Source of the DNA: Candidatus Bathyarchaeota archaeon
Lineage (GTDB): Archaea > Thermoproteota > Bathyarchaeia > 40CM-2-53-6
Length of the DNA stretch: 64,000 bases
Direction: 5' to 3'
Assembly (NCBI GenBank): GCA_005888735.1
Contig: VBBN01000009.1
Span: 697-64,696, forward strand
The notes beneath the pieces were generated by a model. It was not told the origin of the DNA and did not search any database. It was given only the letters and a program-made list of their open reading frames with translations. Made by a program: the position numbers and the translations under genes. How positions within the stretch are numbered: the first letter of the stretch is position 1; each line of letters begins with the position of its first letter. Of the stretch, positions 3,780 to 19,402 are shown in pieces.

Positions 3780-3890
3780 CATCTCTAGAATCTGGGAATC
3801 ACTCCATGTGCCAAATCAACACATTGCGTGTCAAGAACTCACTTGGCACCGCCCCAGGGTGTAGACGGCTCAAAGAGGAAGAAAGTCCGA

Positions 3891-4538
3891 ATGTCGTTCA
3901 AGTCCATCAAAAATTGGGACCGAGAGCAAGGCGCACCTTTGCTCTCGAAACTCGGAGAGCGCGTCCATCACCAAGAACCTCTCAAAGAACGGATCAACCA
4001 AGTCATCTACAAGCTCAGGGTAAACCAGAACCGGCTCGAGGGAGCTAATCTCAAGACACAACAGCACGACAAGTCTCTGTTCGACAAGTGCGTCGCAGCT
4101 CAAATGTCCAAAGACAATGCGAGGGCCACCATGTATGCCAATGAGATTGCTGAAATACGGAAAATGGCAAAAGTCACACTCCGGAGCGAACTGGCGCTGG
4201 AACAAGTGATCCTCAGGCTCGAGACGATCGAAGAGTTTGGAGATGTCGCATCACTGATGGGACCAGTCGCCGGGGTTGTCCGATCGATAAAGAACCAGAT
4301 AACCGGTGTCATCCCACAAGTCGGCTACGAGCTAGGCGAGATTTCAGAAACACTGAGCGGTGTAGTAATGGAGGTCGGCGAAGCGACTGGCACAACCTAT
4401 GACATGGAAACCTCCAACCCAGAAGCCCAGAAGATACTCGGAGAAGCCAACACAATAGCAGAACAAAGGATGCGCGAAAAATTCCCGGAGTTACCCAGCT
4501 CCGCCAGCGCACTGGCAGAGCCGACGATCCCTAGGTAG
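3891..4538 (+). CDS. cdvB2: CdvB paralog (ESCRT-III-like), no winged helix
   Basis: This 215-residue Snf7-type protein has LKERINQVIYKLRVNQNRLE (helix 1) and the ANEIAEIRKMAK...LALEQVILRLETIEEFGD helix 2/3 region typical of CdvB. The C-terminus carries REKFPELP, a MIM2-like motif of the kind that binds the MIT domain of CdvC/Vps4. It ends without the winged helix present in the CdvB at 5330. ESCRT-III proteins polymerise on membranes and constrict the division neck. I choose ATG 3891 because a purine-rich GAGGAAGAAAG stretch precedes it. It is the first gene of the cdv cluster. Confidence 0.92.
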   Translation: MSFKSIKNWDREQGAPLLSKLGERVHHQEPLKERINQVIYKLRVNQNRLEGANLKTQQHDKSLFDKCVAAQMSKDNARATMYANEIAEIRKMAKVTLRSELALEQVILRLETIEEFGDVASLMGPVAGVVRSIKNQITGVIPQVGYELGEISETLSGVVMEVGEATGTTYDMETSNPEAQKILGEANTIAEQRMREKFPELPSSASALAEPTIPR

Positions 4539-4581
4539 AGGGAGAGAGGGCAACTCCAGCCATTATTTTTTGTGAAGGATT

Positions 4582-5292
4582 ATGACGATAACACTAGACC
4601 AAGTCCGACGGTTCCTCGGGAGACCACTTCAAGACCCCTACGGACGAGCGTATGGGAAGGTTGTAGGAATATCCGCCAATCTTCGAGATGAAATCATTGC
4701 CGTAGGCGTAGAGGTGGGAAACGGCGAGTTTGTCCAATGCCCCGGCGACAGGCTCAGCATCTCCACAGACAGTCTCGTTCTACTTCCCGCCTGGAAACAG
4801 GAGGCTGATGACTTCCGGAAGGAGTTCGAGATCGTTACGAGACGCTTGAAGGCCCTCGACGAGCTCTTCAGCGTCGGCGATATTCAACGAGACGTCTATG
4901 AGGATCTCCGAAAACAGCACGAAGACGCCATCAACCAGCTCAAAGCGAAGAGGGCGGAGATTCTTGAGACTCTCAGCCAAAGGACTGGAACACTGACCAC
5001 GCAGCTCCGCCAGCTACAGACACACCTTGCAGGCAACAAGATGCTCCACGCCTCAGGCGAGTTCGACGATCTCAGCTACAAAGCAGCTAGCGAGGCAATA
5101 GACACTGGACTCGTACGGGCCATGGCAGAGAAGAAGGAAGTAGACACCATATTCTCGTATCTAGGCAAGCTTGACACAGCGAATCCTCCCTCATCCCAGT
5201 CAATCTCGCAGCCAGCCCAACCAGTCCAGCCTGCACCAACACCTTCCCAGTCCAAAGACGGCGTTCTGGTTCTCCACGTGAGGGAAGGCTAG
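4582..5292 (+). CDS. cdvA: Cell division protein CdvA
   Basis: This 236-residue protein has an N-terminal PRC-barrel-like domain (about 1-75, with LGRPLQDPYGRAYGKVVGI), a central coiled coil (about 75-190) and a Pro/Ser/Gln-rich linker. It ends in KDGVLVLHVREG, matching the E3B peptide by which CdvA recruits the winged helix of CdvB. CdvA marks the division site and binds membrane and DNA in crenarchaea. GAAGGA just upstream of ATG 4582 serves as the ribosome binding site. It lies between two cdvB genes with short gaps. Confidence 0.93.
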   Translation: MTITLDQVRRFLGRPLQDPYGRAYGKVVGISANLRDEIIAVGVEVGNGEFVQCPGDRLSISTDSLVLLPAWKQEADDFRKEFEIVTRRLKALDELFSVGDIQRDVYEDLRKQHEDAINQLKAKRAEILETLSQRTGTLTTQLRQLQTHLAGNKMLHASGEFDDLSYKAASEAIDTGLVRAMAEKKEVDTIFSYLGKLDTANPPSSQSISQPAQPVQPAPTPSQSKDGVLVLHVREG

Positions 5293-5329
5293 GAGGTTCC
5301 TAGGTCTGTTCAGAAAGCTGGAGGAGAGG

Positions 5330-6103
5330 ATGCATTCAATCCCCCTCAAAGAGCGAATAGCCCAGGCCCTCTGGCGGCTCAACTCACAGAAAGACAAGCT
5401 TGAGCACATGTCCACAAGGCTCCAGCAGCGCGACAAGGAGATGTTCCAGCGATGCATCGGAGCCCAGCTCTCCAAGGACAATGCTCACGCCGCACTGTAC
5501 GCAAACGAATGCGCAGAGATACGCAAGATGGCCCATCTGACAATGAGTAGCGAACTAGCTCTCGAGCGCGTAATCCTACGCTTACAAACAATCGAAGAGT
5601 TCGGCGACGTAATGGCCCAGCTCGCACTGGTTATCGGTGTGGTGCGGGAGACCCGGGGGAGAATAGCGGGCGTCATCCCGGAGGTTGCAGGGGAACTCGG
5701 CGAGGTCAACGAAATGCTCAGCGACATGAGCCTTGAGACAGGCCAGATTCAAGACCAAGGCGTGGACATGCAAGTGTCCAGCTCCGAGGCTCGAAAAGTC
5801 CTCGAAGAATCGAGTGCAATAGCCAGCCAGCAAATGAAAGAACGTTTTCCAGAACTACCGCTCCCTGAAGCACGCGCGTCGGCAACAGAAGTGCGGGTTC
5901 CAGTCGCCGTCACGGCAGGTGGTGAAGAAGAGATTCCCGGCCTACCTAGCGTACCTCTCGAACAGAGACTTTTCGACTATATCAGAAGCCACAACGGGGA
6001 ATTGACAATCAATTCCTGCGCGTCAGACCTGACTGTCTCACCGGACGACGTGCGCCGTTCTCTCCAGAAACTAAAGGATGACGGAAAAGTAGTCACGGAC
6101 TGA
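5330..6103 (+). CDS. cdvB: CdvB (ESCRT-III core protein with C-terminal winged helix)
   Basis: This 257-residue protein has an ESCRT-III core at about 1-165. MIM2-like motifs FPELPLPE (173-180) and PGLPSVP (203-209) can bind CdvC. A C-terminal winged helix (about 210-257) matches the domain that docks on the E3B tail of CdvA. ATG 5330 is preceded by GGAGGAG. An in-frame CTG at 5306 lies 8 nt after a strong GGAGGT and would add MFRKLEER, so the true start could be there. CdvA and CdvC flank it, the standard crenarchaeal order. Confidence 0.95.
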   Translation: MHSIPLKERIAQALWRLNSQKDKLEHMSTRLQQRDKEMFQRCIGAQLSKDNAHAALYANECAEIRKMAHLTMSSELALERVILRLQTIEEFGDVMAQLALVIGVVRETRGRIAGVIPEVAGELGEVNEMLSDMSLETGQIQDQGVDMQVSSSEARKVLEESSAIASQQMKERFPELPLPEARASATEVRVPVAVTAGGEEEIPGLPSVPLEQRLFDYIRSHNGELTINSCASDLTVSPDDVRRSLQKLKDDGKVVTD

Positions 6104-6143
6104 GGACGAGCACACACTCGTCCCCGGAATCCATTAACGATCA

Positions 6144-7307
6144 TTGGGGGTAAAGGAAATCTCGGCCTCGGAAGAACTGGAATCGCTTGCAGTAAGATTT
6201 GCGAATGAAGCAATCGAGCTTGAACGAAAGGGATCAAAGCGAATAGCCGTCACCAAGTACCAGCGAGCAGTCGAGCTGCTCCTCAAGCTATGCTCCCTCT
6301 ATCCCACTGCACCCCAAAACAAGGTCTACATGGAACACGCCGAAGCTTACAAGAAGAGGGTAAAGGAACTCCAATCCGGCTCTGCATCTATCGACCATCC
6401 AGCCGAGGCCCCCGACCTTAGGGATTCCAAGAGCATCAAGTTGGACCAATGGGTTCTGACGGAAAAGCCTGACATTAGCTGGGATGAAATAGCGGGGCTT
6501 GAACGGCCCAAACGAGCCATCGAAGAGGCTATAATCTTCCCGGTCCGAAGGCCCGACCTTTTCCCGCTCGGCTGGCCAAGGGGAATACTCTTCTTTGGCC
6601 CACCAGGATGCGGAAAGACACTCCTCGCCGCCGCAATTGCCAGCGAGATCAAGGGAGTCTTCTTCTGCGCGGACGCTGCGTCCTTGATGTCAAAGTGGCT
6701 GGGCGAGTCCGAGCGCAACGTTCAACAGCTCTTCTCCAAAGCACGAGAAGTATCGGAGAACACGCAGCCTGCGATTGTCTTCCTGGACGAGGTTGACTCC
6801 TTGATGGGAGTTAGGGGCGAAGAGGTGGGCGGTGAGGTCCGAGTCAGAAACCAGTTCCTCAAGGAAATGGACGGTATCCTCGACAAGAAGAAGAAATTCC
6901 ACGTATACGTCATAGGGGCGACTAACAAGCCGTGGGTCCTCGACGAGCCTTTCATTCGACGCTTCCAGAAACGAATCTACATTCCCCTTCCAGATATCAA
7001 AGCGCGCATGGACATGTTCCAAGTCTACTCCCATGATCTGAAGTTCGGCAACAATTTGGACTTTGCCGAGCTGGCCCGGATGACCGAGGGATATTCCGGG
7101 GGGGACATTCGGGACTTGTTCCAGTCAACGCAGATGAAAGTTGTCAGGGACTTTTTCCAGTCTGGCAGAGCGGGGGACAATAGCGCCACGCCGGACCCTA
7201 TTCGAATGGAGGACTTTCAGTCAATCCTAGCAGCCCGCAGGCCGAGCGTCTCCTCGTCTAACCTGAAGCGCTACTTCGACTGGGACGAGACCTTCAAGGC
7301 AAGCTAG
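6144..7307 (+). CDS. cdvC: CdvC, Vps4-type AAA ATPase
   Basis: This 387-residue protein has an N-terminal MIT domain (about 5-80, three helices, LAVRFANEAIELERKG) and an AAA module with Walker A GPPGCGKT and Walker B AIVFLDEVDSLM. The arginine-finger region is RRFQKR. It disassembles ESCRT-III filaments by gripping the MIM motifs of CdvB. Length is normal for the family. The start is TTG 6144; no good Shine-Dalgarno precedes it. It follows cdvB by 40 nt. Confidence 0.96.
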   Translation: MGVKEISASEELESLAVRFANEAIELERKGSKRIAVTKYQRAVELLLKLCSLYPTAPQNKVYMEHAEAYKKRVKELQSGSASIDHPAEAPDLRDSKSIKLDQWVLTEKPDISWDEIAGLERPKRAIEEAIIFPVRRPDLFPLGWPRGILFFGPPGCGKTLLAAAIASEIKGVFFCADAASLMSKWLGESERNVQQLFSKAREVSENTQPAIVFLDEVDSLMGVRGEEVGGEVRVRNQFLKEMDGILDKKKKFHVYVIGATNKPWVLDEPFIRRFQKRIYIPLPDIKARMDMFQVYSHDLKFGNNLDFAELARMTEGYSGGDIRDLFQSTQMKVVRDFFQSGRAGDNSATPDPIRMEDFQSILAARRPSVSSSNLKRYFDWDETFKAS

Positions 7308-7319
7308 GACGGAACCCGG

Positions 7320-7787
7320 TTGAACTTGGACGGAACTGACCTGCGAATCCTGGCAGAGCTGGCCGAGAATTCCAAGGCCTCATTTGTCGAGATAGGCCGG
7401 AAGCTAGGGCTCCACCCCAACGTGGTCGGGTACAGAGTGAACCGGCTTGAAGACTCCGGAATCATACGCGAGTACACCACCCTAATTGACTTCTCAAAGC
7501 TAGGACTGTCAGAACAGGTCCTAGTTGCAGCAAACTTTCCATCCGCCGGGTCCCGAGATGACATTCTCAAACAAATTTCCGAGATTCCTGGAACTGTTAA
7601 CATCATCAGCTCACTAGGCTCGCCTGAAGGGCTGCTGTTCATAGTCGCACGGAACAAAGAGGACGTCAACGCAGCGCTCTCAAAACTCAGGTCCCTCAAC
7701 ATGGATATTCACTTCGCTTCCTCTGTTATACGAACATATGACGAGGGACGTCTCGGGACGTTCCTGAGAACCATAGCGGGGTCGTAG
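7320..7787 (+). CDS. Lrp/AsnC family transcriptional regulator
   Basis: This 155-residue protein has an N-terminal winged helix-turn-helix (LDGTDLRILAELAENSKAS...IGRKLGLHPNVVGYRVNRLE) and an alpha/beta C-terminal ligand domain. It starts at TTG 7320, only 12 nt after cdvC, so it is probably co-transcribed. Lrp proteins usually autoregulate and control neighbouring genes. It may regulate the cdv cluster or the ABC pair that follows. Confidence 0.88.
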   Translation: MNLDGTDLRILAELAENSKASFVEIGRKLGLHPNVVGYRVNRLEDSGIIREYTTLIDFSKLGLSEQVLVAANFPSAGSRDDILKQISEIPGTVNIISSLGSPEGLLFIVARNKEDVNAALSKLRSLNMDIHFASSVIRTYDEGRLGTFLRTIAGS

Positions 7788-7803
7788 GAAGGGTCCTTGT
7801 CCC

Positions 7804-8271
7804 TTGGAAAAGCCCGGCTGGGTTCCCATCGTAATCTCTGGAGTCCTCCCTCGAGGTGTGCCTGACTTGTTCGCTATGGTTATTGTCCTAGCTGCCAGTC
7901 TCAACGCGTCCCTGGGCTCAACGGTCCTGGCAGGCTTGGGGATTGGGCCTGCACTGTTGGTGCTATCTGTTATGGCATCGTGCGCTTTGGCAGCCTCGTC
8001 GAATAGTGCTCGACGGCTTAGGGAAGAGCTTGCATTATTCGCATATGGTAGCTCTACACGGATGGTCGGGCTCAGGGGGTTTCTGAGAGGAGTTGCTTGC
8101 GTGTTTCTCGCTCTGCTCTTCTACATTGCATTAGAGGCGAGAACCTTAGGCTTGTTTTCTGGTTCGATGATCATAATCTGTCTCGCGATTGTGGTCGGGG
8201 GCGTTTCCTATGCTCTTCCTATCCTCTTCCGGACTCGGTCCTTGGACTTCGTGGAGAACTACAAGGGGTAG
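7804..8271 (+). CDS. Small FtsX/MacB-like permease (about four TM segments)
   Basis: This 155-residue hydrophobic protein has TM segments near 18-35, 40-64, 95-115 and 120-140. The segment ARRLREELALFAYGSSTRMVGLRGFLRG resembles the coupling region of FtsX/MacB permeases (R-E-x-x-L-x-x-x-G-x-S). It is about half the usual permease length and lacks a large extracellular domain. It starts at TTG 7804 and is immediately followed by the ABC ATPase, so the two likely form one transporter-like complex. Assignment to the FtsX fold is tentative. Confidence 0.55.
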   Translation: MEKPGWVPIVISGVLPRGVPDLFAMVIVLAASLNASLGSTVLAGLGIGPALLVLSVMASCALAASSNSARRLREELALFAYGSSTRMVGLRGFLRGVACVFLALLFYIALEARTLGLFSGSMIIICLAIVVGGVSYALPILFRTRSLDFVENYKG

Positions 8272-8275
8272 CAAG

Positions 8276-8971
8276 ATGACCAGTCTTCTGGAAACAGTCA
8301 CAGTAACGATTGACTATCCGTACTCGGAAGGGGTTCTCAAACTCTACGACGAAGGCGTCTCCATGAAAATTGGCAAAGGAGACTTTACCGCGGTCCTGGG
8401 AGGCTCAGGGTGGGGGAAGTCAACACTTGTCAACCTCGTGCTGGGGCTGGAGAAGCCGAGCGCTGGAGCAGTGTATTTCAATGGGGAAGACGTGACCCGG
8501 CGTTCGTTCGTAAAACGATGCTCACTCGTCCGGACTGCGGCAGTGTTCCAGCGACCAACAGCCATTCCCCAGTTGACGGTTGCGCAAAACCTCAGCGTAG
8601 CACTGTCGTTCGCTTCCGTTCCGAGAAAGGAGCGGGATGAAAGGGTCCGGGAGTCCCTAGGTTTCTTCGGGCTTGAGATGTTGTCACGTTCCTACCCCGA
8701 CGCCCTCAGTGCGGGGCAGCGTAGAAGAGTCGACTTGGCCCGAGCGCTCGCTGTCCGCCCAGATTTCCTAGTTGTTGATGAGCCCACAGGTGACTTGGAC
8801 AGTTCGGCTTCAAACCTCGTCATGCCTCTGCTTCGAGGCTTGAACCATGACCATGGCATGGCGATCCTCATGACGACTGCTCTTCCAAGATGCGCCGCGG
8901 TAGCGAAGAGTCTGCTCCATCTCAAGCCGCCTGTGTTCGTCAGCTCTGAAAATAGGATGGTTGGACACTAG
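8276..8971 (+). CDS. ABC ATPase of FtsE/LolD/MacB type with degenerate H-loop
   Basis: This 231-residue protein has Walker A GGSGWGKST, Q-loop FQRPTAIPQLTVAQNL, signature LSAGQ and Walker B FLVVDEPTGDLD, the last typical of the FtsE/LolD/MacB group. The switch histidine normally seen as T-H-D is absent (MTTALPRCA), so hydrolysis may be slow or regulated. ATG 8276 begins 5 nt after the permease stop, and the third cdvB starts 3 nt after its own stop. That tight packing links it to the division genes. Confidence 0.85.
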   Translation: MTSLLETVTVTIDYPYSEGVLKLYDEGVSMKIGKGDFTAVLGGSGWGKSTLVNLVLGLEKPSAGAVYFNGEDVTRRSFVKRCSLVRTAAVFQRPTAIPQLTVAQNLSVALSFASVPRKERDERVRESLGFFGLEMLSRSYPDALSAGQRRRVDLARALAVRPDFLVVDEPTGDLDSSASNLVMPLLRGLNHDHGMAILMTTALPRCAAVAKSLLHLKPPVFVSSENRMVGH

Positions 8972-8973
8972 GA

Positions 8974-9582
8974 TTGTTCAAGGAGAACCACTCCCTGGCT
9001 GACAGGTTCCGTGAGGCCCTCAAGCCTACCCCGATGAAGAGGAGAATACAGCTGGCGAGCAACCGGCTGAGGCTGCAGATGGGAAGACTCGACAAGACCG
9101 TTAGCCAGATGGAAGCGCGAGACAAGACGCTCTACGAGAGATGCGTCAAGTCCCTGGCCGCCAGAGATGTTCAAGCCGCAACACTGTTCGCCAACGAGTG
9201 CGTGGAAATCAGGAAGCTTGTCAAGACAAGCTTGAGCAGTCAGATATGCCTGGAACAAGTGCTCCTGCGACTGGAGACTATCGAACAGTTTGGCGACATG
9301 GTCAAGAGCATGGACCAGGTCAAAGGAATCATCGGCCTAGTTAGAGGCGACTTGGAAGGAAAGCTTCCCGAAATCTCGACCAACCTTGCAGACATTGAAG
9401 ACTCTCTCGGAAGTGTTACCGTGGAGATCGGCCAGGCGGTGGATTCTGAAGGCCCACTCATCCCGGCGAGCGACGAGTCCGCCCGTGTCTTGAAGGAAGC
9501 GGACGCGATGGCCGAGCAGAAGATGAAGGAAAAGTTCCCGGAGATTCCGGCAATTATCAACGATCCCGCGCGTGTAAGGTAG
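8974..9582 (+). CDS. cdvB3: Third CdvB paralog (ESCRT-III-like), no winged helix
   Basis: This 202-residue ESCRT-III-like protein has helix 1 MKRRIQLASNRLRLQM, then the ANECVEIRKLVKTSLSSQICLEQVLLRLETIEQFGD core. It ends in KEKFPEIPAI, a MIM2-like tail. The winged helix is absent. It starts at TTG 8974, directly after the ABC ATPase, and is followed 7 nt later by a second cdvA-like gene. The pair looks like a duplicated CdvA/CdvB module. It is about equally diverged from the two other CdvB proteins in the cluster. Confidence 0.9.
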   Translation: MFKENHSLADRFREALKPTPMKRRIQLASNRLRLQMGRLDKTVSQMEARDKTLYERCVKSLAARDVQAATLFANECVEIRKLVKTSLSSQICLEQVLLRLETIEQFGDMVKSMDQVKGIIGLVRGDLEGKLPEISTNLADIEDSLGSVTVEIGQAVDSEGPLIPASDESARVLKEADAMAEQKMKEKFPEIPAIINDPARVR

Positions 9583-9588
9583 GAACTG

Positions 9589-10248
9589 GTGCTCACCCCG
9601 GAGCTCGAGACAAAGGCGCTGCTTGGACGCGGAGTCAACGACATCTACGGACGGTTCGTCGGGCGGGTCATAGGAATCGACCGGAATCCTTTCGGAGAGA
9701 TGGAAGGCGTCCAGGTAGAATCTGTTGGAAACAGCATCATCACCTTCAAAGCCCGACAGATAGCCCTCACACCGAAAGCCGTCACAGTCACCCCCGAATG
9801 GAAACTGGAGGTAGAGGACGTGGTCTCGGAACTCTCGACGCTAAGAAAACGTGTCACCGCGCTGGAGCAGTTGAACGATGCGAGGGAGATAGACGGGGAG
9901 ATTTATGCCGAGATTTTGGAAGCCCAGAGGGCTGGCTACTTGGAGAGGGTGAAGATGGGAGAGGCGCTTGCTGGATCTGTAAAATCGCAGCTTGGAACCG
10001 TCGCCGGGCAGATAGCAAGTCTCACTAAACACTTGGTCAATGCCAAACTGGACCATAAGAGCGGTCAGCTGGACGATGCAGCGTTGAAACTTGCGCAGAG
10101 TTCTATCGAGCCCAGCCTCCGGCCGCTGATAGGAGAAAAGAACGATCTCGCTCTAGCGCTCAGGAAGCTGGAGGGCGTTCTTCCCTCGCGGGTTTCACTA
10201 AGCGAAACGGATTCACCGTTGCCGAGCGCAGCCAAGTCCGCTCGCTGA
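9589..10248 (+). CDS. cdvA2: Second CdvA paralog, lacking the CdvB-recruiting tail
   Basis: This 219-residue protein mirrors CdvA: an N-terminal PRC-like barrel (LLGRGVNDIYGRFVGRVIGI), a coiled coil, and a segment SGQLDDAALKLAQSSIEP that aligns with SGEFDDLSYKAASEAIDT of the CdvA at 4582. The C-terminus (PLPSAAKSAR) lacks the hydrophobic E3B peptide, so it should not recruit CdvB in the usual way. It starts at GTG 9589. It closes the cdv cluster, and a separate promoter follows. Confidence 0.88.
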   Translation: MLTPELETKALLGRGVNDIYGRFVGRVIGIDRNPFGEMEGVQVESVGNSIITFKARQIALTPKAVTVTPEWKLEVEDVVSELSTLRKRVTALEQLNDAREIDGEIYAEILEAQRAGYLERVKMGEALAGSVKSQLGTVAGQIASLTKHLVNAKLDHKSGQLDDAALKLAQSSIEPSLRPLIGEKNDLALALRKLEGVLPSRVSLSETDSPLPSAAKSAR

Positions 10249-14697: not shown

Positions 14698-15657
14698 TTA
14701 GAGTGGAACTTCTATCATCAGACGTTCCAAAAGTTCCTTGTACCGGTTTCTAATCGTGACCTCCGTTACGTTTGCGATCTCAGCGATTTCCCGCTGGGTT
14801 TTCCGCTCGTTCGTGAGAACGGTTGCAATATATGTGGACGCGGCTGCTATGCCAGCGGGTCCTCGACCGCTCGTCAGTTTCATCTGCCGTGCTATTTCGA
14901 GAATCTTGATTGCTATGCCCTCCGCCTTGCCGGAGATGGTCAGCTTGTTGGAGAAGCGGGCCGCGTAGCTGCGGTTGGCGGAAGGTGGAACAAACATGCC
15001 TAGCTCTCGCAGCATGAACCTGTAGCTCCGGCCGATGTCCTTTTTGTTCAGGGTGGACACGGAGGCAATCTCGTCAAGCGTTCGAGGGACGCCGCACTGT
15101 CTGCATGACATGTAGATTGCTGCAGCGGTCACGTTGTGAATCGACCTGCCTCTAATCAGTTTCTTCCGGATTGCTCGACGGTAGACCACTGAAGCGGTTT
15201 CAAGGATGTTCTTCGGGAGAGAAAGTGAGGCTGATAGCTTACTGAGTTCTGAGAGAGCGACAGCTAGGTTTCTCTCGGTCGCGTCTGAGACCCTTACCCT
15301 TCGCTGCCACTTGCGAAGCTTGTAGAGTTCTATTCTCTGGTCGGCCGTGACCGACTTTGTCCCTGAAGGCTTATCCCTCCAGTCGATGATTGTTGAGAGA
15401 CCTTTGTCGTGAATCGTGTAGGTCATCGGGGCGCCTACCCGAGCCCTCTTTGCGCGTTGCTCGTCGTCGAATGCTCTCCACTCGGGCCTCGTATCGGCGA
15501 TCTTCTCGGCTACGACGTAGCCGCATGTCATACAGACGACCTCTGCTGCGTCAAAGTCTCTCATTAGACGAGACCCGCCGCATTCTGGGCAGGACCGCGC
15601 TCGTTTGATAGGCTCTGGCGCGTGTTGTACTTGTGGCTGCTCCAATTCCTCGACCAC
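14698..15657 (-). CDS. tfb: Transcription initiation factor B (TFB)
   Basis: This 319-residue TFIIB homolog has an N-terminal zinc ribbon (CPECGGSRLMRDFDAAEVVCMTCG), a B-reader/linker region (PEWRAFDDEQRAKRARVG, DWRDK) and two cyclin folds (about 110-205 and 215-315). It bridges TBP at the promoter and RNA polymerase. The start could be a few residues downstream of M1, but the ribbon begins near residue 20 in any case. It lies next to gar1 in the same direction. Confidence 0.96.
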   Translation of the reverse strand: MVEELEQPQVQHAPEPIKRARSCPECGGSRLMRDFDAAEVVCMTCGYVVAEKIADTRPEWRAFDDEQRAKRARVGAPMTYTIHDKGLSTIIDWRDKPSGTKSVTADQRIELYKLRKWQRRVRVSDATERNLAVALSELSKLSASLSLPKNILETASVVYRRAIRKKLIRGRSIHNVTAAAIYMSCRQCGVPRTLDEIASVSTLNKKDIGRSYRFMLRELGMFVPPSANRSYAARFSNKLTISGKAEGIAIKILEIARQMKLTSGRGPAGIAAASTYIATVLTNERKTQREIAEIANVTEVTIRNRYKELLERLMIEVPL

Positions 15658-15672
15658 TTTGCCGTTTTGCTC

Positions 15673-15924
15673 CTAGTTCTCGACCAGGTAGACGATTCTT
15701 CCGGCTAGTGTGCTTGGTGATTCGCCTGTTGGTTGGACGGAGGCGTACGGAGCCTTTACGGGGCCGAGGATATTGTTGACTATGCCGACCTTTCTCAACT
15801 TATAGTCGCACACTGACGCGCCGACAGGCGGTGGTCGCTGGGATGTTTCCAGTCGAAGAATCAAATTGCCGGACTTTGACAGGTGCAGAACTTTGCCAAG
15901 CCGTCTCAAACCCGCACCTGGCAC
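15673..15924 (-). CDS. gar1: H/ACA RNP subunit Gar1
   Basis: This small beta-barrel protein (about 83 aa) carries LRRLGKVLHLSKSGNLILRL, GASVCDYKLRKVGIVNNILGPVKAPYASV and a final strand AGRIVYLVEN, the Gar1 pattern. Gar1 works with Cbf5, Nop10 and L7Ae in RNA-guided pseudouridylation. I choose GTG 15924, because the ATG at 15969 lies inside the likely TATA element (TTTAAATAC on the minus strand). It is followed 16 nt later by tfb. Confidence 0.9.
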   Translation of the reverse strand: MPGAGLRRLGKVLHLSKSGNLILRLETSQRPPPVGASVCDYKLRKVGIVNNILGPVKAPYASVQPTGESPSTLAGRIVYLVEN

Positions 15925-15995
15925 ACTCCAAGTGAAAGTGGACAAAGTCGAAATCGCGTATTTAAACATTGATAGACAAGAAACATTTTCAATTC

Positions 15996-16033: not shown

Positions 16034-17995
16034 TTGATCAGGGAAGTTCAACTCTCCAACTTCATGTCCTACAGGAATGCTAGTGTACCCCTTGAGCCTG
16101 GGCTTAACCTGATAATCGGTCCGAATGGCGCAGGAAAGTCGTCGATTCTTCTGGCAATCTCAGTCGTGCTGGGACAAGCGTACACGGAGCGTGCAAAACG
16201 GCTGAGCGAACTCATACGATGGGGCGAGCAGGAGGCCAGGGTCTCGGTAAGACTTGACAACGTAGGCAGCAAAGGTTCCAAACCCTTTCCCCAAGCACGA
16301 GCCGAACAAGTGCTGATAACACGTGTTCTGAAGAGGTCCGGAGACCACCACTATCTTCTCAACAAGAAGCCGGTCTCCAGAACAGACCTTGTCGAGGGCC
16401 TATCACGGGTGGGATTGAACCCGGACAACATGCTTGTGATAATGCACCAGCTGATGGTCGGACGCTTCGGATCTGTCAACCCAGTCGACAAGCTGTTGAT
16501 GCTGGAGGACGCGATTGGATTTGGGGCGTACAGACGGGAGGTGCTGGATGCTTCGAACAGGCTTCAGAAACTGACCACTGAAAGAGAAGCTATGTCGTCA
16601 GTTCTCGAGGGAACAAAGGAGACGTACCAGCACTGGCAGAGAGAGTTCGAGAAGTACGAGCTGAAACGCAAGCTCGAGGACCAGTTGAAGGACCTGCAGC
16701 GAGAGTTGGCGTGGAGGAGGATTCTCAGAAAAGAGTCTTCGCAGAACAGAATCAAAGAGAGAATCTCCTCGCTTCAACGCGATGTCGGGAAGACGAAGAA
16801 GGAATTCGAGTCCTACGACTCCAAGAGTCTGACGGTTTCAAAAGACCTCGCGCAGCTCAGCGAGAGCCTGGAGCGTTTTCGTGAACAACAGTCGAAGCTT
16901 GAGTACGGCCGAGGATTTCGCTCAGGGGTTATGGAATGGATTGAGAGAGTTGGCCAGGTTCTGCGGTCTCAGGAGAAGCTAATCCAGTCTCTCAAGGATG
17001 CCGCCGCTGATTCACCAGAGTTGCTTGAAAGCGAACGTGGCCTGAAACAGATTCTTTCGGAGTATCAGCAAGAGCAGGAAAAACTGGCGAGCGAGGCCAG
17101 TGCCGGTGATTCGGAGTATGCGAGCGTGAGCGGCAAGATTCGAGAAGTCTCCGCCTCTCTAACCAAGAGTACTGAATCGCTGATTCAGTCGAGAGTCGGA
17201 AAGGAAGTAAGCTCATTCAAGCTGTCTGCAATCGCCGACCAGATCCAAGACCAGGAAGCGCAACTGCGTGTTCTCGATGAGGAGTTCGAGCCCATGCTGG
17301 CACAGGCTTCACAGCTGGGGCAGCGGTTCGAAAACCCTCGAGACCTACAAGTCATCACTTTGGACCTGGCAACGGTCCAGGAGAAGCTTAGGCCCCTTGC
17401 CCATCTATCCGAGGAAGTGGAGAAGATGTACCGAAATTACGGGAACATCTACGAGGACCTGAAGAAGAAAGCGGTGGTTGTCGAGCAAAACAGGACCGAG
17501 GTCTTGGGGGAGCTAAGTGAACGGTTTGAGAGATGGAGAGGGGTCATGGAGAAGATGTTCGAAGACCTCTCAGCCCGGTACAATTCAATTCTAGCACCAG
17601 TCGGGGGTAAGGGACGAATAGCTTTGAAAGCTTCCAAGGACATTGAGAAATCGGGTCTTGAACTGCATGCGGGCTTCAGGGGAAACGAGCCTGTGTCATT
17701 GGACGGGCTGTCTCCGAGCGGCGGAGAACGGACAATTGCCCTGATAGCGTTTCTTCTCTCGCTCCAGCAGTTTGTCGCCTCTCCATTCAGAGCAATTGAC
17801 GAGTTTGACGTTCACATGGACCCACGAAACCGCGAGACAGTCACCAAGCTCATCTACGCCGCCGCAGCCGAAACTGAGGCCACCCAGTACGTGGCAATCA
17901 CTCCCGGACATCTAACTCTGCCCGGGAACGAGCATGTTCACGTTGTTGTTGTTCAGAACATTGAAGGCTCCTCGATAGTCAAGGAGTTGAAGTAG
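16034..17995 (+). CDS. SMC-family ATPase, Smc5/6-like, short arms
   Basis: This 653-residue protein has an N-terminal head with Walker A GPNGAGKSS and a C-terminal head with signature SPSGGERT. Walker B and D-loop read RAIDEFDVHMDPRNRE, followed by TQYVAITPGHL. The DP-R-N-R and QY-x-x-x-TP features are characteristic of Smc5/Smc6 heads rather than Smc1-4 or Rad50. Coiled coil fills about 195-480, but no globular hinge is apparent and the length is well below the usual 1000. It starts at TTG 16034. It is followed without a gap by two small genes that fit kleisin and KITE subunits. Confidence 0.8.
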   Translation: MIREVQLSNFMSYRNASVPLEPGLNLIIGPNGAGKSSILLAISVVLGQAYTERAKRLSELIRWGEQEARVSVRLDNVGSKGSKPFPQARAEQVLITRVLKRSGDHHYLLNKKPVSRTDLVEGLSRVGLNPDNMLVIMHQLMVGRFGSVNPVDKLLMLEDAIGFGAYRREVLDASNRLQKLTTEREAMSSVLEGTKETYQHWQREFEKYELKRKLEDQLKDLQRELAWRRILRKESSQNRIKERISSLQRDVGKTKKEFESYDSKSLTVSKDLAQLSESLERFREQQSKLEYGRGFRSGVMEWIERVGQVLRSQEKLIQSLKDAAADSPELLESERGLKQILSEYQQEQEKLASEASAGDSEYASVSGKIREVSASLTKSTESLIQSRVGKEVSSFKLSAIADQIQDQEAQLRVLDEEFEPMLAQASQLGQRFENPRDLQVITLDLATVQEKLRPLAHLSEEVEKMYRNYGNIYEDLKKKAVVVEQNRTEVLGELSERFERWRGVMEKMFEDLSARYNSILAPVGGKGRIALKASKDIEKSGLELHAGFRGNEPVSLDGLSPSGGERTIALIAFLLSLQQFVASPFRAIDEFDVHMDPRNRETVTKLIYAAAAETEATQYVAITPGHLTLPGNEHVHVVVVQNIEGSSIVKELK

Positions 17996-17996
17996 G

Positions 17997-18785
17997 TTGA
18001 AGCGAGGATCCAGCAGGACCAGTGTCAAGAAGGACCTTGAAGAGATAGTGCAGACTTGCAACTCAATTGAGAACAGACAATTCAGCCCGTTTCTTCTTGA
18101 CGTTTCTGAGGCGCTCAGGATTCTGAGGTTACACGCCGGGGACTTGAACCGGCTGGAGGATCACTTGCTCGATATGCGAGCGATAACGGGAATCGCACGG
18201 GTCGTCGGCTTGCAGAGTTCTCAATTGAGGTTCCAGTCTACCTCGCTCTTCCTCGACCCGGAATTGGCGAAGCAGAAACTGGAGGGTCTGTCAAGGCAGC
18301 AGCTGGCCGAGTTCTTCTTGCTGTCGTGGCATCCCGTGACGGAGCTTGAACAGCTGGTGATGCCGGCAGTGAAGGAGGCTTCAGAGTATTGGAAGAAGAT
18401 GCTCTCGTTCTTCGAAAGGAGAGGCAAGTTCGACCTGGGCCAGTTCGATTCGCCCGGAACCTTTGGGCTCGGCGACCTAGGCAGTTCCGGGATGATGGAG
18501 GACCAGAGTTTCACAGAGAGACTCCAGGGTCTCTGGAACGAGCTCAAGTCCAGGGCAAAGAGCGGAGAGGGAGTCGAGTACTGGAGCTTCGTAAGATCAC
18601 AGGATTTCCGGGAAACAGTCTCTCGTGCCCAACTCGTTAGCTTCTTGGTCAGCTACGGATATGCCAATATGGACAAGAATGGGGACAGAATAGTGTTGAC
18701 TCCTAACGAGACCCCGGTCCTGCAGACAGAAGGGTCCCCGCACAGCTTCCCCATACCAATACCTTGGGAGAAAGCGCCAGCTTGA
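17997..18785 (+). CDS. Predicted kleisin-like subunit of the SMC operon
   Basis: This 262-residue, mostly helical protein starts at TTG 17997, one base after the SMC stop. The N-terminal half (FLLDVSEALRILRLHAGDL and onward) could form the helical bundle that binds an SMC neck. The middle (about 150-185) is glycine-rich and loosely structured. The C-terminal segment (YWSFVRSQDFRETVSRAQLV...GDRIVLTP) looks like a winged helix, as at kleisin C-termini. Sequence identity to named kleisins is not evident; the call rests on position and layout. Confidence 0.45.
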   Translation: MKRGSSRTSVKKDLEEIVQTCNSIENRQFSPFLLDVSEALRILRLHAGDLNRLEDHLLDMRAITGIARVVGLQSSQLRFQSTSLFLDPELAKQKLEGLSRQQLAEFFLLSWHPVTELEQLVMPAVKEASEYWKKMLSFFERRGKFDLGQFDSPGTFGLGDLGSSGMMEDQSFTERLQGLWNELKSRAKSGEGVEYWSFVRSQDFRETVSRAQLVSFLVSYGYANMDKNGDRIVLTPNETPVLQTEGSPHSFPIPIPWEKAPA

Positions 18786-19402
18786 CAGTTGAACCAAGAA
18801 AGGAGGAAACTGTGTACTCCGACCGCCTCAAGCGGGCCGCACACATGCTGTTCTTCAAACGCGGAAAAATCCCCGGGGCGAGGACCTGGGAACTGCGGAC
18901 CGGTCTTGGGAAAGGCTTCCAGAAGACTCTATCCGACCTGGACGACGTTCTCAAGGACCTCGACCTTGAGGTGAAGAGAGTGGAGGTTCAGAGTCTCGGC
19001 GAGACTCAGGCGAGTCTCGAAGGAGAGGAAGATTATCGATACTTTGTCCGGTTGAAGGGTACCCTTACACCCAAAGAAGCCAGAATGTCCGGCTGGAGGA
19101 TAGACAATCTAGCGGCGATGGCAGCCTGTTTCGGCCTCATCGTCTCGAAACAGGGAAAGTGCGAACGAAAAGAGTTGGAAGAACTTGTGGCCCACAAAGC
19201 CGGACGATGGAGAACTCTCACACTTGTGGACACGTTTCTCAGAACCGGCTATCTTGAAGAGGATGAGGAAGGACTCGTGAAGCTAGGCTGGCGGACCCGG
19301 GCCGAGGTGGACCTGCAGGCGCTCATGATGCTGTTGGCGGAGTCAAAGCCAGAGGCTGAGCCTGTCGGCGTTGAGGAAGAAGCGGATCAGGCTGCTATTT
19401 GA
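18764..19402 (+). CDS. Predicted KITE (NSE1/NSE3/MAGE-like) subunit of the SMC operon
   Basis: This 212-residue protein appears to hold two winged helices. The second (about 110-185: AAMAACFGLIVSKQGKCERKE, TFLRTGYLEEDE, LVKLGWRTRAEVD) has the layout of MAGE/NSE3 WH-B, which ends in YLxx...WGPRAxxE. It overlaps the kleisin-like gene by 22 nt; TTG 18782 is an alternative start that overlaps its stop. KITE dimers bind kleisin linkers in Smc5/6, MukBEF and ScpAB complexes. The acidic tail is probably disordered. Confidence 0.5.
   Translation: MGESASLTVEPRKEETVYSDRLKRAAHMLFFKRGKIPGARTWELRTGLGKGFQKTLSDLDDVLKDLDLEVKRVEVQSLGETQASLEGEEDYRYFVRLKGTLTPKEARMSGWRIDNLAAMAACFGLIVSKQGKCERKELEELVAHKAGRWRTLTLVDTFLRTGYLEEDEEGLVKLGWRTRAEVDLQALMMLLAESKPEAEPVGVEEEADQAAI

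Follow-up and report, generated by a model that had tools for sequence, protein, structure and literature searches.

A conserved three-gene operon for a putative SMC, kleisin and KITE

We analysed a 64,000 bp stretch of DNA from Candidatus Bathyarchaeota archaeon (contig VBBN01000009.1), hereafter the window, in which three open reading frames (ORFs), named here A, B and C, form an operon on the + strand between positions 16034 and 19402. The original prediction, made from the sequence alone, had read them as the SMC, kleisin-like and KITE genes of an archaeal Smc5/6-like complex. Our results agree with this layout: A and B are separated by 1 nucleotide (nt), the last 22 nt of B are shared with C, and the gene order is kept in homologues. 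We consider the family identities of the trio very probable, and the product of the whole operon is probably an archaeal complex of SMC, kleisin and KITE that belongs to the Smc5/6 branch and has a hingeless SMC; it may work as a short, ATP-gated DNA clamp.

16034..17995, + strand: gene A, predicted hingeless Smc5/6-related SMC ATPase, 653 amino acids (aa), TTG start (SMC_N, E 4e-36; Smc6/Smc5 profile scores; tree; AlphaFold model, predicted local distance difference test (pLDDT) 87)
17997..18785, + strand: gene B, predicted Nse4-like kleisin, 262 aa (profile against PDB; Nse4_C)
18764..19402, + strand: gene C, predicted KITE, 212 aa (AlphaFold model, pLDDT 79; Foldseek)

In Pfam, A matched SMC_N, B gave a weak Nse4_C match (E 0.047) and C had no match. 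Scanning 84,980 genomes gave 80 homologous loci, mostly from archaea of the TACK lineages. Iterated family hidden Markov models (HMMs) located B at 75 of these loci and C at 73, with the order A-B-C kept; this recurrence of the trio is far beyond chance. Follow-up genome searches covered the phylum of the window, where gene C turned up in 125 of the 300 genomes sampled, representing 58 of 127 genera.

Gene A has the head of an Smc5/6-type SMC

The head motifs of A read GPNGAGKS, SPSGGE, DEFDVHMDPRNR and TQYVAITP, and the conserved features of the head and of the adjoining arm helix map as follows.

16118..16141, + strand: Walker A GPNGAGKS, A residues 29-36 (G29, P30, N31, G32, G34, K35 and S36 invariant in 67 homologues)
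16712..16714, + strand: invariant Trp227, motif LxRELxWA, in the N-terminal helix of the arm and probably located at the joint (W in 67 of 67)
17717..17728, + strand: ABC signature SGGE, A residues 562-565 (invariant in 67 homologues)
17786..17833, + strand: Walker B and D-loop FRAIDEFDVHMDPRNR, A residues 585-600, Smc5/6-like (D589-D596 and R600 invariant)
17900..17905, + strand: TP of ITP, A residues 623-624, common to Smc5/6 (T and P invariant)

The M of HMD is invariant across the 67 A homologues, as are the T and P of ITP. At the D-loop, Smc6 has DEFDV(F/Y)MD..NR where canonical SMCs have DEVDAHLD, and at the ITP site Smc5 has ITPKLL and Smc6 ITPQDI or LTPQSM where canonical SMCs have VSLKD; the pattern DEFDxxMDxxNR and the TP of ITP are common to A and Smc5/6, whereas canonical SMCs carry LD and SLKD. 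Trp227 aligns with 'MAWAVV' of human SMC6 and with 'LWIDVA' of yeast Smc6.

We then ran a profile built from the 67 A proteins against all PDB chains. Smc6 (230 bits) and Smc5 (221 bits) came out on top, followed by Pyrococcus Smc (197), Smc2 (166), Smc1/3/4 (119-136) and Rad50 (55 bits), while a control profile of canonical SMCs from the phylum of the window gave the reverse order, with Smc2 at 427, Smc3 at 396, Smc4 at 368, Smc1 at 356, Smc5 at 98 and Smc6 at 86 bits. The Smc5/6-specific head features that had been claimed for A are thus borne out by both its motifs and its best profile matches. In a maximum-likelihood tree of heads, which was built without Smc1, Smc3 and Smc4 and with Smc2 represented by its N-terminal head only, A and Smc5/6 shared one branch (support 100/99) that was stable after dropping Rad50, or either Smc5 or Smc6; a grouping of Smc2 with Smc5/6 was rejected (p 0.0004). 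These sequence comparisons place A among SMCs of the Smc5/6 branch and apart from Rad50 and RecN. As a relative of Rad50, RecN, RecF or ASRP it was ruled out by the PDB profile scores, the head tree and its score with the model NF045487. The genome of the window has a single A-type gene; its other full-length SMC match is canonical.

The arm of A ends in a turn instead of a hinge

The hinge is the usual pairing site of SMC proteins and is treated as a defining part of them and of ring-based loop extrusion. In the AlphaFold model of A (predicted template modelling score 0.60) an outgoing helix (residues 164-323) is followed by a turn (324-327) and a returning helix that is broken at 429-437 and 456-460; DSSP on this model assigned helix to 164-323 and, after the turn, to 328-428. 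Two features of this arm are placed on the window.

17003..17014, + strand: predicted turn of four residues, A residues 324-327, that forms the tip of the arm at the hinge position of other SMCs (DSSP on the model)
17318..17344, + strand: interruption of the returning helix, A residues 429-437, a candidate for the 'joint' (AlphaFold; possible equivalent of the SMC joint)

From the invariant W227 to the conserved R436 the 67 homologues have 106-239 residues, with no room for a hinge, and their alignment has no CxxC in the arm of any member. The tip is the least conserved and gappiest part of A, with an information content of 1.2-1.7 bits and 79% gaps at residues 321-340. The 25 Pfam families most frequent in the 67 A members do not include SMC_hinge, which was detected in the canonical SMCs tested from the phylum (PF06470, 1.5e-23). 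The model and the alignment thus both indicate a short arm without a hinge, as had been predicted, and a check for a hidden hinge found none. A truncated gene or an assembly error was rejected as the cause, because the 67 homologues agree. We also ruled out an SMC-kleisin fusion at one locus (L022), where a 901-aa ORF proved to be another frame overlapping A.

Two Bathyarchaeota homologues of A are long (L074:2926-6057 and L075:1630-4857), with open frames of 1044 and 1076 aa. Their genes do not adjoin B or C, and near the middle or tip of the arm they carry CDKCGS, a CxxC like that of the Rad50 hook, which may bind zinc. Since these hook-like forms nest within the A clade of the tree, the arm tip appears to be exchangeable.

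Gene B resembles Nse4 and gene C folds as a KITE

A profile of B searched against PDB matched EID3 (4e-6) and yeast Nse4 (7e-6) best, within a range of E 4e-6 to 2e-5, and ScpA chains came next at E ~0.1. Pfam Nse4_C was found in 41 of 73 B members (best 1.5e-7), covering the C-terminal domain only. The B HMM also picked up 20 ScpA-like ORFs beside or near canonical SMC genes, with E-values calculated for a small set. From these sequence relations we identify B as a kleisin, probably Nse4-like, with the following parts.

18075..18227, + strand: N-terminal helical region, B residues 27-77, candidate neck-binding kleisin N domain (weak hhalign match)
18504..18722, + strand: C-terminal winged helix, B residues 170-242, predicted to bind the head cap (hhalign against archaeal ScpA, prob 96.4, E 1.4e-9)

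The match to archaeal ScpA bears out the C-terminal winged helix that had been predicted for B. Single-sequence PDB searches with B and C returned nothing useful.

For C, the AlphaFold model predicts two winged helices in series.

18821..19054, + strand: predicted winged helix 1, C residues 20-97 (H20-30, H41-48, H52-66, E68-74, E91-97)
19100..19285, + strand: predicted winged helix 2, C residues 113-174 (H113-128, E132-134, H135-146, H148-161, E164-166, E171-174)

The top five of 350,542 PDB chains in a Foldseek search with this model were NSE1 (E 4.1e-5), Nse1 (1.5e-4), Nse3 (2.8e-4), MAGE-G1 (2.2e-3) and MukE (5.2e-3), and the template modelling scores against the best Nse1 and Nse3 structures were moderate, about 0.5. 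The second winged helix ends in GYLEEDE, with GWRTRAEVD just beyond it, and Y163, R177 and E181 are invariant in the C family. The original prediction had likened this region to MAGE/NSE3; the tandem winged helix holds in the model, but the stretch from GYLEEDE to GWRTRAEVD aligns best to NSE1 (E 0.14). Profiles revealed no relation of C to ScpB (hhalign prob 1.5; no ScpB found by the C HMM) and no detectable internal repeat between its two winged helices. The modelled C protein looks like a single KITE of tandem winged helices whose 212 aa hold no further domain, and the conserved pairing of genes B and C suggests that it binds the kleisin. Neither small protein had an unrelated fold: B led to Nse4/EID3, and C to NSE1, Nse3, MAGE and MukE.

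Other SMC systems in the same genomes

On another contig (C8), the genome of the window carries a canonical SMC gene (1188-aa open frame) followed by a ScpA-like gene and ScpB (9.6e-28), and on a third (C62) it has Rad50 beside an Mre11-like gene, the latter named from reading its sequence. We rejected the idea that B and C are duplicates of ScpA and ScpB, since contig C8 of this genome already carries that pair. Two families, f17 and f21, differ from this arrangement: a canonical-SMC query found there only hingeless ORFs of 581-673 aa, plus a 907-aa Rad50-sized ORF in one genome (G030). The f17 C proteins are 80-100% identical to those of Methanomethylicia loci, and the hingeless SMC appears to be the sole SMC in f17 (matching Methanomethylicia) and in f21. 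As a separate observation, the canonical SMC ORFs of five loci (L141-L145; 1300-1320 aa) are broken directly after the Walker A GSGK in an intein-like manner.

A proposed ATP-gated clamp

In the mechanism that we propose, which is tentative and falls somewhat short of an even call, the hinge of A has been lost or was never present, and two A heads would engage around ATP. One B would bridge them: its C-terminal winged helix would bind one head, and its N-terminal helical part would contact the neck of the second. A dimer of C would sit on the middle of B and, together with the engaged heads and short arms, clamp a DNA duplex that ATP hydrolysis would free. The arms stop shortly past the joint in a plain, unconserved turn, so heads and kleisin, and not a hinge ring, would provide closure; with the hinge missing and the arms short, a compact DNA clamp is the likely product. 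Its role may be chromosome maintenance alongside an ordinary Smc-ScpAB. The stoichiometry, contacts, clamp cycle and role in this scheme are our inferences, the mechanism being modelled on Smc5/6 and Smc-ScpAB. In its general form the idea is similarly tentative, plausible yet just under evenly balanced: an Smc5/6-type head-kleisin-KITE module would act as a hingeless ATP-gated clamp whose tip can be exchanged, being a turn in most of the archaea with this trio, a CxxC hook in some Bathyarchaeota and a hinge in eukaryotic Smc5/6, and it would be the sole SMC in Methanomethylicia and one other family.

Several results weigh against this interpretation. The approximately unbiased test keeps an arrangement of Smc5/6 with Smc2 and canonical SMC as opposed to A with Rad50 (p 0.187), the eukaryotic branches of the head tree are long, and the top Foldseek match of A is Pyrococcus Smc, ahead of Smc6 and Smc5. 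The N-terminal part of B is only weakly ScpA-like (hhalign E 0.0034, prob 9.6; E 0.07 against the ScpA N-terminal part in 6ivh), and the profile matches of C to MAGE, NSE1 and MAGE-G1 are non-significant (E 0.07-1.5). That A, B and C bind one another is suggested by the conserved operon alone, and self-association of the arm tips is possible.

Alternative functions and the gene neighbourhood

A reasonable possibility, and one compatible with a clamp, is that the trio acts in DNA repair with an Lhr-type helicase, as the archaeal equivalent of Smc5/6 in replication-coupled repair. Its descent from the Smc5/6 branch fits this function, and 37 of 78 loci have a gene for an Lhr-type helicase close to the trio, often convergent with C and sharing a few bases with it (for example L034:4117-6996, - strand); convergent neighbours, however, do not make an operon, and in the window no Lhr gene adjoins the trio.

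A conventional loop extruder seems unlikely to us; two A proteins would then associate by their arm tips without a hinge fold, so that a ring could still form. The arms themselves are kept in all 67 homologues, and the CxxC near the middle of the two long arms suggests that a device for tip dimerisation has evolved there, but the 67 short forms have no Cys pair or domain at a tip that is also their most variable and gappy part, and arms that end so shortly past the joint would encircle little DNA.

It is improbable, in our view, that the trio segregates chromosomes specifically for cell division by Cdv (ESCRT-III). The window does hold a Cdv/ESCRT-III cluster (3828-10248, + strand) with two CdvA and three CdvB genes, ~6 kb upstream of the trio.

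3828-4538, + strand: CdvB
4582-5292, + strand: CdvA (PF18822, 2.7e-18)
5330-6103, + strand: CdvB
6144-7307, + strand: CdvC/Vps4
8974-9582, + strand: CdvB
9589-10248, + strand: second CdvA

Moreover, one other Bathyarchaeota genome (G301; L160 and L161) has CdvB after the trio and CdvB-CdvA-CdvB-CdvC after a second B-C pair. Most loci, however, do not adjoin Cdv genes, and the f17 genomes have the trio without a CdvA match; the neighbour survey and these genomes rule out a Cdv link as a general rule. Lhr-type neighbours thus suggest DNA repair and Cdv neighbours suggest division, and neither association is universal.

A defence system restricting plasmids or viruses, like Wadjet JetABC, is very improbable: it is favoured by the same three-part make-up, by JetABC in the structural match list of A and by a weak likeness of A to Lamassu and MADS ATPases in PADLOC, but no JetD-like nuclease recurs among the neighbours, B and C match no PADLOC model, the trio is near single copy across the 58 genera, its recurring neighbourhoods are non-defence, and it is apparently the sole SMC in some lineages.

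Two further neighbours recur. A family of ~230 aa occurs in 26 of 78 loci, often divergent and 40-230 nt upstream of A (L032:4249-4932 and L084:1194-1898, - strand); one member that was tested had no Pfam match. Genes for TFB and a Gar1-like protein lie upstream of the trio (14698-15969, - strand) and are kept in close relatives, in 14 and 10 loci.

Significance and comparison with known systems

An archaeal 'SMC5/6-related' SMC, a branch grouped with Smc5/6, has already been described (PMC9389158, PMC10003631), and A very probably belongs to it; neither paper refers to partner genes or to the lack of a hinge. Our literature searches gave no direct match for archaeal Smc5 combined with Nse4 or Asgard, for a hingeless SMC of the Smc5/6 branch, or for the hook variant. 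Archaeal Smc5/6-like partners may already be covered in a 2024 preprint on the prokaryotic roots of SMC complexes (van Hooff and colleagues), which makes it uncertain whether the kleisin and KITE assignment is novel; the hingeless arm and its exchangeable tip seem to be new. A conserved complex of this branch that clamps DNA with heads, kleisin and KITE but lacks a hinge would uncouple the clamp function from the ring, and the trio would offer a system of one SMC, one kleisin and one KITE in which to test this. The trio would also give the archaeal origin of Smc5/6 a concrete form: a distinct complex that has an Nse4-like kleisin and an Nse1/3-like KITE of its own and exists alongside the canonical Smc-ScpAB.

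Among short SMC-related ATPases of archaea, A shares its size class with ASRP, coalescin (ClsN) and Sph. ASRPs mostly have a zinc hook (PMC9389158), whereas the arm of A has no Cys pair and its NF045487 score is 57 against a cut-off of 300 bits; unlike Rad50, the 67 A proteins have no zinc hook. MukBEF and Wadjet JetABC are likewise three-subunit SMC-kleisin-KITE systems, and MukE is among the fold matches of C, but A is much closer to Smc5/6, and no JetD was present among the clustered recurrent neighbour genes. Smc-ScpA-ScpB has the same make-up of SMC, kleisin and KITE; its canonical SMC, however, is hinged and encoded elsewhere in the genome, and C is not of the ScpB type.

The closest comparison is with the genome-protecting Smc5/6 complex of eukaryotes (Smc5, Smc6, Nse4, Nse1 and Nse3), with which the trio shares the sequence affinity of the head, the DEFDxxMD and ITP motifs, an Nse4-like kleisin and the KITE fold of Nse1 and Nse3. 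It differs in having one SMC gene in place of a heterodimer, short arms, no hinge, and one KITE without a RING in place of Nse1 (with its RING) and Nse3; no Nse2 gene lies in the operon, although no search was aimed at Nse2. The original prediction of a minimal Smc5/6 set therefore stands for the type of its three components, and not for the single SMC, the single KITE lacking a RING or the absent hinge. In this sense, the trio may be a stripped-down cousin of the core eukaryotic machine.

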